Of a stretch of DNA of 52,010 nucleotides, positions 4,337 to 12,049 are shown one piece after another. Each line of letters opens with the position of its first letter. Position 1 is the first letter of the stretch. The DNA comes from ANME-2 cluster archaeon (GTDB lineage Archaea > Halobacteriota > Methanosarcinia > Methanosarcinales > Methanocomedenaceae): assembly GCA_014237145.1 (NCBI GenBank), contig JAAXOC010000101.1:1-52010 (forward strand), written 5' to 3'. The notes under the pieces were generated by a model. That model searched no databases and had not been told where the DNA came from. It saw only the letters and a list, made by a program, of their open reading frames with translations. A program made the position numbers and the translations under genes.

Positions 4337-4621
4337 TTACTTTACTGGTTCGCCCATTTTTTTGATTTTCTCCACTTCTTCAGGACTGGTAATTGTGAGC
4401 AAAAAGGTACCGTGACATGGCTTTGTATATGGAAATATGATATTATCGCCGTCTACTGCCACATAGATTGGCGGAACACCAATAATGAACACATTCATCA
4501 TATGATACCCTGGCTGGACTTGGTAATATTCATCATAGTTTGAGCTGATGAATGACGAGCATTCCTTGAATCTAGCCCTGGCTAGTAAAATCTCATATTT
4601 CAACTGTTCGATGCAGCCCAA
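4337..4621 (-). CDS. DUF1894 family protein
   Basis: A 94-residue soluble protein of the DUF1894 family, found essentially in methanogens and relatives; its function is unknown. Recognisable features are the N-terminal helix MGCIEQLKYEILL, the central VQPGYHMMNVFIIGVPP segment, and the PCHGTFLLTI strand. Its start overlaps the end of the upstream DUF1890 gene by 22 bases, and the pair sits behind methanogenesis marker 14 on the same strand. I recall this linkage from Methanosarcina genomes. Confidence 0.8.
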   Translation of the reverse strand: MGCIEQLKYEILLARARFKECSSFISSNYDEYYQVQPGYHMMNVFIIGVPPIYVAVDGDNIIFPYTKPCHGTFLLTITSPEEVEKIKKMGEPVK

Positions 4622-5076
4622 CGTTCTACCTCCATGATTACTTTTGATATTATTGGTTTTGGATTATGCACAGCTCCGGCCCAGATATTTTCCAAGCTTG
4701 CATCATCACACTGCTGTGCCAGGGCCATGGCATCGTTCCCGAATATTATCCCCACGGCCTCACCGCTTATTAATGCGGCTGCCGTGGCAAGATATGACAC
4801 CCCTGTATCGTTATGGATGAATACGTAACATATGTCAGCATCAACCTTTTTTTCGGCAAGACCGCCAATAGTAGCATCAAGGTCAGCCGTTTCTTTTATA
4901 TAATGCCTGGCAGGGTCGGCCGTACGGACCAGTCCAAGTGCTGCATTGTTACCTGCAATGGTTACCATGGCACCGCTTTTTACCAGCAGGTCCAGGGTAT
5001 AGATAGCCAGGCTGGTCTGCACCGGGACTTCAGGGCAGCCTAACATTAACAATGCCTTTTTGCGTTTATCTTTCAA
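4600..5076 (-). CDS. DUF1890 family protein
   Basis: A 158-residue protein of DUF1890, a methanogen-restricted family of unknown role with a Rossmann-like pattern: LLMLGCPEVPVQTSLAIY, then GAMVTIAGNNAAL, then ICYVFIHND. The start is TTG at 5076, preceded by GGAAG as ribosome-binding site. The junction with the upstream marker-14 gene is unusual. A 32-bp unit holding a stop, a ribosome-binding site and a TTGAA start is present three times in tandem (5072-5167), so two nine-codon mini-frames precede this gene. It overlaps DUF1894 downstream. Confidence 0.82.
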   Translation of the reverse strand: MKDKRKKALLMLGCPEVPVQTSLAIYTLDLLVKSGAMVTIAGNNAALGLVRTADPARHYIKETADLDATIGGLAEKKVDADICYVFIHNDTGVSYLATAAALISGEAVGIIFGNDAMALAQQCDDASLENIWAGAVHNPKPIISKVIMEVERWAASNS

Positions 5077-5167
5077 GATTATTCTTCCTTATGCTGATAA
5101 TAGTTCAAGATTACTTTTCCTTATGCTGATGATAGTTCAAGATCATTCTCCTTTATGCTGATGATCG
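5072..5167 (-). repeat. Three tandem copies of a 32-bp stop/RBS/start unit
   Basis: Units occupy 5136-5167, 5104-5135 and 5072-5103. On the minus strand each reads roughly CGATCATCAGCATAA, then AGGAGA or GGAAAA/GGAAGA, then a few bases, then ATCTTGAA. The first unit contains the natural stop of marker 14 (5153-5155). The last provides the TTG start of DUF1890. The two inner units create nine-codon frames (TTG AAC TAT...), each ending in TAA just before the next start. Confidence 0.85.
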
Positions 5168-6685
5168 TTTAACCTGTGCCTCTTCGGCAGTCATTTTTTT
5201 CATCTCTTTTTCATCCATGTTCCCACCCTGGAGCTTCATGCGTTCCCGCAGGACACATTTTCCATATCTGGAACCACCCAGGGGATTTTTTGGCGTACCA
5301 AGTGAATTCATACACCTGGCCATTACCGCAGCTCCCCGGGCAAGACCATCATCGATAAATACAATATGTTCCTCAGGTGAATCGAATATGCCCAGTTTTT
5401 TTATCTGGCTGAGTATTAATCTTGGTTTGCATCCGGTAATGGCTGCCCTTCCCGTCAAACCCAAGGCAGTCCTCTCTGTGACAAGGTTCTCATCCGATGC
5501 AACTTTCACCAGCCGTTTCACCATGATAGCACACACCATATCCACTATAGCGAACAGTGTCTCCAACCCATATTTTTCATACACTTTGCCCCCTATCTTT
5601 GATAGTTTTTCCAGGTCAGAACCGTTTTTGCCCACATCACACCCTATCAGGGTGACCCCGATTTCCTTTGCTGTTTTCGGGCTGACCGGTACGCTGCCGT
5701 ACTTGTCCACATTTTCGGGAATCACCTCAATTGATATCAGTTCATGTATCTTATTGGTATACTCTTTGATAACCTTCCCCCGCTTCATCCAGGTGAGTAG
5801 TCCCACTGGTTTGTTTTTAAACAGGTCAAGGGCAGTACCTACCTTTTCATCCACAAGATGTGTGCCCTGGATAATGGCATCCGGAATGGCACCGGCATAC
5901 CCTGCAAAATTCCCGGTAACCCTGGCATATGGGGTATCGTCATTTGTGATGCGACCATCCAGCGTTGTGCCGAAGTCTATGGAGAGACAGGGATTCCTAA
6001 AATCAATGCCCGCCCATTTTGCACCTTCCTTAATACCGGCGGTGGCCAGTTCACCTTCCATCTCATTGGCGACCACCTCAAGTCCCGAGGCACCCACAGG
6101 GGGAAGTACGCCACCCACCGCACCTGTGAACACGATCTTTTCTATCAAGCTGAATTTCCTGAAGCGCTGTGGCACGTTCTCTATGGACATGGCAGGGATC
6201 ATGTGTTTGGGCGGTACCCCGGCCATCATGCACCCGTCTGCCAGAGCCTTGACGAAATGGCCTACTTCGTCAGGCGAATCAAAACCGGCAACAACCCCGG
6301 TGGAGCGTACCACAAAGTGCAGGTCCTCTTTAATATCAAGGTTAGCTGTACACAGCGATTCCTGCAGAGTATCACGCACCAGTTCGGCTACAGATTCCTT
6401 GGTAAGTGAAATGCCTGTAAGTGTTTTACCAAAAATCTCTTCGTTTGGCCTGGGGCTCCTGACGTCCCGTGTCATATTTACAGTTTTATTGACAAGGCTG
6501 GTCTTGCCATCCTCCAGGTTAGTAGCTGTCAGTATGCATTTAGTTGTAGTGTTGCCTACTTCTACCGAGGCTACAATGAAATAAGGCTTTGACTTCAGGT
6601 CCAAAAGCCTGACATAAGGGCTATCTGAGATTCTTGGTTTTGGCCCGAATGTATTTTTTTTTAGTATTTTTACCGGATTGGTCAT
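5153..6685 (-). CDS. Methanogenesis marker protein 14
   Basis: About 510 residues; I recognise it as methanogenesis marker protein 14 (the TIGR03285 family). Its actin/ASKHA-like fold includes VASVEVGNTTTKCI near the N-terminus and a second phosphate loop, LSIDFGTTLDGRI, mid-protein. These resemble activators of corrinoid or redox proteins. The family is confined to methanogens and close relatives and its precise role is not established. I took the ATG at 6685; the frame also offers TTG at 6694, and no clear ribosome-binding site decides between them. DUF1890 and DUF1894 follow on the same strand through the 32-bp tandem repeat. Confidence 0.9.
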   Translation of the reverse strand: MTNPVKILKKNTFGPKPRISDSPYVRLLDLKSKPYFIVASVEVGNTTTKCILTATNLEDGKTSLVNKTVNMTRDVRSPRPNEEIFGKTLTGISLTKESVAELVRDTLQESLCTANLDIKEDLHFVVRSTGVVAGFDSPDEVGHFVKALADGCMMAGVPPKHMIPAMSIENVPQRFRKFSLIEKIVFTGAVGGVLPPVGASGLEVVANEMEGELATAGIKEGAKWAGIDFRNPCLSIDFGTTLDGRITNDDTPYARVTGNFAGYAGAIPDAIIQGTHLVDEKVGTALDLFKNKPVGLLTWMKRGKVIKEYTNKIHELISIEVIPENVDKYGSVPVSPKTAKEIGVTLIGCDVGKNGSDLEKLSKIGGKVYEKYGLETLFAIVDMVCAIMVKRLVKVASDENLVTERTALGLTGRAAITGCKPRLILSQIKKLGIFDSPEEHIVFIDDGLARGAAVMARCMNSLGTPKNPLGGSRYGKCVLRERMKLQGGNMDEKEMKKMTAEEAQVKRSSA

Positions 6686-6777
6686 AGTTCGCAAACTTCT
6701 ATAGGGATTGTAATAGATATATTTTGTTTTCTACTATTCTGCATAATATGTGCACACCCATGAACCTATTGCTAAGT

Positions 6778-10272: not shown

Positions 10273-11268
10273 ATGGGTGGGGAACTTTTTTTTGCAGATG
10301 CCGATTCTAATTATTCTGATGCTAAATTCGTGATCTTCGGTGCACCTTTCGACGGTACATCCTCTTTCAGGAAGGGCAGCCGGTTTGCCCCTGATGCCAT
10401 ACGCGAAGCTTCGTATAACTTTGAGACCTACAACCCTTACTTCGATATCGACCTTGCTGACATACCCTTCCATGATGCGGGGGATGTGGACATACCCTTC
10501 CATAATGCAGGAGATGTGGACATACCCTTCCATGATGCTGGAGATGTGGACATACCCTTCCATGATGCTGGAGATGTGGACATACCCTTTCATGATGCAA
10601 GAGATGTGGACATACCTGATAATTGCACAGTAGAACAGGCCCAGGCTGCGGTTGGTGACATGGTAACCGGCATCCTTAGTGATGGTAAGATTCCCGTAAT
10701 GCTGGGTGGTGAACATTCACTTACGGTGCCGTGTGTCAGGGGATCAAAGAGCTATTTCAATGACCTGGGTGTGGTGGTGCTGGATGCCCATTTTGACCTG
10801 CGGCAGGAATATGAGGGGCAGGTCAACAGTCATGCCTGTGTGAGCCGCCGTATCATCGAAGACATTACAGGCAATTATGTATCCATAGGCATACGAAGCG
10901 GCACCAGGGATGAATACTCACTTGCCAGGTCCCGTGGTATTACCTACTATCCGGCAGATCTTGTAGAGGATAAAGGCATCCCACATGTTCTTGCAGAACT
11001 TTCCAGGCACCTTGACCTTGGTACAAGTCACCTGTACCTGTCACTAGATATGGATGTCCTGGATCCGGCATATGCTCCTGCACTGGGTACACCCGAACCC
11101 TTCGGACTAACTGACAGGCAGGTGCTTTCACTTATCAGGCGGCTGGCCCCCCGGTCTGTTGGTTTCGATCTGGTGGAGATCGCTCCCGGGTTCGATAGCG
11201 GAAATACCGCACTTCTGGGCGCAAAATTCGTATGTGAGTTCATAGCATCTGCCTGGGCTTCACGATAA
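10273..11268 (+). CDS. speB: Agmatinase/ureohydrolase family enzyme with an internal tandem expansion
   Basis: Hydrolyses agmatine (or a related guanidino compound) to putrescine and urea in polyamine synthesis. The metal ligands are intact: GGEHSLTVP, LDAHFDLR and SLDMDVLDP. So are the fold's GTSSFRKGSRFAP start and VEIAPGFDSGNTA end. At 331 residues it is about 40 longer than usual. The excess is a tandem array at residues 63-112 of five copies of DIPFHDAGDV, encoded by 30-bp units, where relatives have one. The array lies before the catalytic core, probably in a surface loop, so activity may persist. Annotation as agmatinase rather than another ureohydrolase rests on family and context. 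Confidence 0.9.
   Translation: MGGELFFADADSNYSDAKFVIFGAPFDGTSSFRKGSRFAPDAIREASYNFETYNPYFDIDLADIPFHDAGDVDIPFHNAGDVDIPFHDAGDVDIPFHDAGDVDIPFHDARDVDIPDNCTVEQAQAAVGDMVTGILSDGKIPVMLGGEHSLTVPCVRGSKSYFNDLGVVVLDAHFDLRQEYEGQVNSHACVSRRIIEDITGNYVSIGIRSGTRDEYSLARSRGITYYPADLVEDKGIPHVLAELSRHLDLGTSHLYLSLDMDVLDPAYAPALGTPEPFGLTDRQVLSLIRRLAPRSVGFDLVEIAPGFDSGNTALLGAKFVCEFIASAWASR
10459..10608 (+). repeat. Five 30-bp tandem repeats inside speB
   Basis: Units start at 10459, 10489, 10519, 10549 and 10579, and a partial sixth begins at 10609. Each encodes D-I-P-F-H-(D/N)-A-(G/R)-D-V. Differences are few: GCGGGG, GCAGGA and GCTGGA in the Ala-Gly region, AAT for GAT in unit 2, and AGA for GGA in unit 5. The near identity points to recent slippage or unequal crossing-over. 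Confidence 0.95.
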
Positions 11269-11620: not shown

Positions 11621-12049
11621 TCACCCTTTTTTTCCGCGACGGCCAATGCCACCACTACGACTGCCACCACTACGACTGCCACCACTACGACCACTGCCAC
11701 TACTGCGACCACGACCACGACCACGACCGCCACCGCGCCCCATACTATCTCGACGAGTTCCGTTAGTGGCGCTGTTATTCGTATACCGTTTGATGGCGTC
11801 TCTAACAGATCCTATGGCAGTTGTAATCCCGGATGCAATTGCGGCGGGCATGGACACATTCTCCTGCACTATTTCATCCGGCACTTCGATAATTGCCTCT
11901 TTCTTGCATATGTTGACACAGGCTCCGCAGCCAGTGCAGAGGTCGTTATCGATATGTGCCGCATCTGATAGTGTTATCGCACTTACCGGACATGCATTGA
12001 TGCATAATCCACATCCTGTACATAGCGATTCATCGATTTTGCACTTCAT
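11621..12049 (-). CDS. 2[4Fe-4S] ferredoxin with Gly/Arg/Ser-rich tail
   Basis: The first ~60 residues are a classic bacterial-type dicluster ferredoxin: CTGCGLCINACP and CTGCGACVNICK. They should carry two [4Fe-4S] clusters and transfer electrons at low potential. The tail is unusual. From about residue 105 to the C-terminus (142) it is nearly all Gly, Arg and Ser (GGGRGRGRGRSSGSGRSGGS-like), suggesting RNA, polyphosphate or protein contacts. Its ATG overlaps the stop of the NifX-like gene (ATGA), so the two are translationally coupled. That neighbour is also Gly/Arg/Met-rich. Confidence 0.88.
   Translation of the reverse strand: MKCKIDESLCTGCGLCINACPVSAITLSDAAHIDNDLCTGCGACVNICKKEAIIEVPDEIVQENVSMPAAIASGITTAIGSVRDAIKRYTNNSATNGTRRDSMGRGGGRGRGRGRSSGSGRSGGSRSGGSRSGGIGRRGKKG

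Follow-up and report, generated by a model that had tools for sequence, protein, structure and literature searches.

The short reading frames ahead of the DUF1890 gene of an ANME-2 cluster archaeon are, in all likelihood, by-products of a duplicated gene start. We analysed a stretch of 52,010 nucleotides from this organism (the window), together with the corresponding locus in related genomes. The reading that we hold to be probable is that the start junction of DUF1890 has undergone recurrent tandem duplication across the genus, that the last copy is the functional one and that the mini-ORFs arose as a side effect of the repeated unit.

A repeated translational junction ahead of DUF1890

Three 32-bp units lie head to tail on the - strand, from 5167 to 5072, and connect the 3' end of marker 14 with the TTG at which DUF1890 starts. 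The array and the genes around it comprise the following features:

5153..6694, - strand: methanogenesis marker 14 gene (DUF2114 / TIGR03285), matching PF09887 (E 4.5e-225) and TIGR03285 (E 7.5e-206)
5136..5167, - strand: unit 1, with the end of marker 14, its stop TAA, the Shine-Dalgarno-like run AAAGGAG and TTG
5111..5140, - strand: mini-ORF 1 (TTG...TAA), nine codons, MNYHQHKEK*
5104..5135, - strand: unit 2, with TAAGGAAAAG and TTG
5079..5108, - strand: mini-ORF 2 (TTG...TAA), nine codons, MNYYQHKEE*
5072..5103, - strand: unit 3, with the Shine-Dalgarno-like run TAAGGAAG and the TTG that starts DUF1890
4600..5076, - strand: DUF1890 protein gene with a TTG start at 5076, matching PF09001 (E 2.8e-45)
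4337..4621, - strand: DUF1894 protein gene, next in the cluster, matching PF08979 (E 8e-37)

Tandem Repeats Finder reported the array at 5072-5169 with a period of 32, 3.1 copies and a score of 147. The units read CGATCATCAGCATAAAGGAGAATGATCTTGAA, CTATCATCAGCATAAGGAAAAGTAATCTTGAA and CTATTATCAGCATAAGGAAGAATAATCTTGAA on the - strand, and their pairwise identities are 26/32, 27/32 and 29/32 (81-91%). When shifted by 32 positions the array matches itself at 57 of 66 positions, while in 20 shuffled versions of the whole window, which preserved base composition only and not dinucleotides, no lag from 15 to 80 gave more than 36 of 66. Both results bear out the sequence-only reading, which had described a unit of stop, ribosome-binding site and start that occurs three times in tandem. 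It had also described two nine-codon TTG...TAA mini-cistrons, each ending just ahead of the next start, and this too holds: both stops lie 2 nt before the following TTG. The profile matches agree with its gene names, marker 14 (DUF2114/TIGR03285) followed by DUF1890 and then DUF1894; its label of a 'core methanogenesis cluster' has no basis beyond those family names. A literature search returned no paper mentioning DUF1890 and none on repeats at ribosome-binding sites.

The stop of marker 14 (TAA, 5155-5153) falls inside unit 1. From there, the links to mini-ORF 1, on to mini-ORF 2 and on to DUF1890 measure +12, +2 and +2 nt; counted directly, the stop and the DUF1890 start are 76 nt apart. 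The sequence-only reading overlooked an ATG at 5146 that precedes the TTG of mini-ORF 1 in frame (MILNYHQHKEK*). As this ATG follows the GGAG by only ~1 nt, it is not the likelier start.

Short tandem repeats can be mis-assembled, and we considered whether the three-unit array is an assembly artefact. The array spans only ~98 bp, and this explanation has hardly any chance of being correct because all units differ from each other and independent MAGs of other species carry two or three units at the corresponding position. Reading the 32-bp unit as a dispersed repeat was rejected, since no other occurrence was found in the examined genus genomes at up to three mismatches. The RNA of the array was predicted to be less stable than the majority of shuffled versions (z +1.14), which argues against reading it as a structured leader RNA.

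The junction in relatives

The genus, which named records place among the ANME-2 cluster archaea, was sampled with the window genome and five others. Four of these five contain the locus (G001, G002, G003 and G005); in the sixth genus genome, G004, neither marker 14 nor DUF1890 had a match, so that it is uninformative on copy number. Copy number in relatives had been named as a check on the original observation, and across species it supports the repeat: all five species with the locus have more than one unit, namely two in G003, G005 and G001 and three in the window genome and G002. At the readable loci of the family's other genera (locus L094 reads N at the junction), the junction is single: the stop is followed by a TTG after ~10 nt, usually accompanied by a GGAG-like run. 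Because the junction is single there and present in two or three units here, the duplication belongs to the genus.

The DUF1890 TTG occupies the same position in the relatives examined, and the final unit retains its Shine-Dalgarno-like run and TTG in five of five genus species, as no other unit does. The upstream units have decayed in different ways. The first-unit Shine-Dalgarno run is lost in G003, the inner start reads CTG instead of TTG in G005, the second inner start reads CTA in G002, and the first unit is split by an insert in both G001 and G002. A mini-ORF that is intact with its own Shine-Dalgarno run and TTG was seen only in the window genome, a comparison of low power with five species. 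At fourfold sites of marker 14 the relatives diverge from the window genome by 0.09-0.19, and in five species of such modest divergence weak selection on the mini-ORFs could easily escape notice. The segment CTATCATCAGCATAAGG is almost invariant in four genomes, which could reflect constraint or recent conversion.

The inserts are of two different kinds, 138 and ~158 bp long, and occur at the same junction in one species each (loci L003 and L005). Their ends are inverted repeats (TATAGTCAAGAAC...GTTCTTGACTATA and TGAGACTTTTTA...TAAAAAGTCTCA) and both families are multi-copy in all six genus genomes, so we regard them as MITE-like. They leave marker 14 and DUF1890 intact at distances of 180 and 238 nt in G001 and G002.

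Proposed origin of the array and possible role of the mini-ORFs

We propose a tandem duplication of the 32 bp that make up the translational junction of marker 14 with DUF1890, probably in the ancestor of the genus. Slippage or recombination would have taken place between two short direct repeats 32 bp apart, one in the terminal part of marker 14 (TTAAACGAT) and one where DUF1890 starts (TTGAACGAT). Both sequences are seen at unit edges in relatives, all of the five genus genomes with the locus being duplicated; the second unit of G001 begins with CTTGAACGATCAT, as the short-repeat model predicts. The third copy would have been added later in the lineage of the window. It is probably a duplicate of the second unit because units 2 and 3 both begin with CTAT, a beginning they share with the final units of G003, G005 and G002. 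As 32 is not a multiple of three and each unit contains a stop, the upstream copies would turn into the 5' leader of DUF1890. DUF1890 would then be initiated from the Shine-Dalgarno run and TTG of the last copy, largely independently of marker 14, a step suggested by that unit being the conserved one. Mini-ORFs would follow automatically, each unit providing a TTG whose frame is closed by the TAA or TGA of the next unit just ahead of the following TTG. Low-level translation of these frames is possible, and nothing in the sequences indicates that they are maintained.

Of the two possibilities raised by the sequence-only reading, tuning by re-initiation or a recent harmless duplication, the harmless duplication is thus better supported, although its recency is only partly right: the two-unit state is common to all five genus species with the locus, while the third unit looks lineage-specific and like a copy of the second.

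We wondered whether the mini-cistrons might instead carry ribosomes across the array. Since DUF1890 now lies 76 nt from the stop of marker 14, terminating ribosomes could cross in hops of +12, +2 and +2 nt, and such a relay would restore or damp the coupling of the two genes. In Haloferax experiments, coupling fell sharply with a distance of 13 nt and was lost at 22 nt (PMC10666635). If these limits are carried over, which is an assumption because Haloferax is not an ANME archaeon, direct coupling over 76 nt is unlikely while the short hops could couple. The geometry therefore permits re-initiation in the window genome, where both mini-ORFs are intact. We searched for paths of mini-ORFs that lead to DUF1890, allowing gaps from -8 to +20 nt. 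Permitted chains exist in the window genome, in G003 (with a last link of -4) and in G005 (in another frame), but G001 has none and that of G002 runs only via the inserted element. Moreover, 14-48% of shuffled gaps contained a chain, and a chain like that of the window genome survived random substitution of 6-10% in 68-79% of trials. Being frequent in shuffles and usually robust to substitution, a chain is weak evidence for a relay; the path test has little power, and it lends selection on a relay no support. The losses of inner starts and Shine-Dalgarno runs in G003, G005 and G002, together with the split first units, speak against conservation of the arrangement. The stop ahead of each TTG (TRATC) does not speak for it, as it is also found in first units, where it closes no mini-ORF. 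Tuning by the mini-ORFs is thus unproven and, judging from these comparisons, unlikely to be conserved, and we regard the relay as an unlikely explanation of the array.

The number of units itself might matter if gain and loss of units in populations set the translation of DUF1890 through the number of ribosome-binding sites, in the manner of a variable-number leader repeat. Species do differ in having two or three units, and other arrays of the genome vary between species too, for example in an agmatinase-like gene. However, the units within the array differ at 3-6 of 32 bases, which indicates that they are not turning over fast. We hold tuning by copy number to be highly improbable.

Tandem arrays elsewhere in the genus and related systems

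Tandem duplication in this genus extends beyond the DUF1890 junction. We surveyed ~0.84 Mb (837 kb) of the window genome, the window included, for arrays with periods of 15-80 and found 40 (4.8 per 100 kb). G003 contained 11 in 251 kb (4.4 per 100 kb) and a genome of a sister genus 8 in 400 kb (2.0 per 100 kb). Periods divisible by three were seen in 17 of 18 arrays inside genes versus 8 of 22 outside in the surveyed part of the window genome, the expected outcome of widespread duplication with removal of duplications that break the frame. The agmatinase-like (arginase/agmatinase-family) gene at 10273-11268 carries such an in-frame array near its N-terminus (30-bp unit, 10459-10616, + strand), with DIPFHDAGDV-like repeats that vary from ~1 to 7 across the genus. 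Eight of the 40 arrays overlap a called gene start; the ORF calls are crude and several starts doubtful, and we claim no enrichment.

The clear gene-start case in the window genome lies where an AAA/adenylate-kinase-like gene, matching Pfam AAA_18, follows an aminotransferase gene (L119, G000:C7, 8185-8407, - strand). Its 29-bp unit, present 7.7 times, carries an ATG and the first codons of the gene and thereby generates mini-ORFs of about ten codons, for example MIIALTGTPL*, which are partly joined by ATGA overlaps. At the same junction G005 has a plain 4-nt ATGA gene overlap with no repeats, and other relatives have a few copies. In G003 and G001 an insert that resembles the first MITE-like kind (family assigned by eye) sits upstream of the copies. 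A broader reading of these two junctions would be that, across the genus, gene starts duplicated again and again give rise to series of mini-cistrons serving as translational relays, both at DUF1890 and, as a longer chain, at the AAA/adenylate-kinase-like gene. Such chains would let ribosomes re-initiate over gaps too long for coupling, and copy number would set expression. We consider this quite unlikely. A relay path at the AAA/adenylate-kinase-like junction was not found in G001, G002 or G004.

The proposed duplication of the start junction resembles minisatellites that arise by slippage or at short repeats: the copies are ~30 bp long and head to tail, their number varies between relatives, a short direct repeat may mark the proposed breaks and the genome contains many other arrays. 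Unlike in an ordinary minisatellite, the unit here is a whole stop/Shine-Dalgarno/start junction, and each extra copy is a complete mini-cistron. The 2-nt distance from each mini-ORF stop to the next start is within that permissive for termination-reinitiation in Haloferax (PMC6728339, PMC10666635), a system in which the commonest natural coupled pairs are 4-nt overlaps (PMC6728339, PMC10666635). In contrast to the Haloferax pairs, the cistrons that might be coupled here have nine codons and are not conserved as a set. As short ORFs that immediately precede a gene on its own strand they also recall the general class of regulatory leader mini-ORFs, but they encode no conserved peptide with an obvious function in sensing, lack significant RNA structure and have lost their starts in relatives.

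Between the same two genes, the genomes thus offer a natural series of one, two and three junction copies as well as versions split by inserts. With this series one can ask what spacing, and what number of ribosome-binding sites, is tolerated in an archaeal operon. It also cautions that short mini-ORFs in front of a gene can arise as side effects of start-site duplication.

Three more arrays were noted. A 41-bp unit present 3.9 times (L161, G000:C52, 15447-15604, - strand) lies just upstream of a RuBisCO large-chain-family gene and extends into its called start, the position of which is uncertain. Within the window, a 15-/30-bp low-complexity array at 11647-11728 falls within the C-terminal tail of a ferredoxin-like ORF (11621-12049), a tail that is Gly/Arg/Ser-rich on the - strand. 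In G003, a 35-bp unit present 2.2 times (L167, G003:C216, 10772-10849, - strand) spans a gene start; it contains a purine-rich run and an ATG and, by eye, forms a 12-codon mini-ORF that ends in an ATGA overlap.
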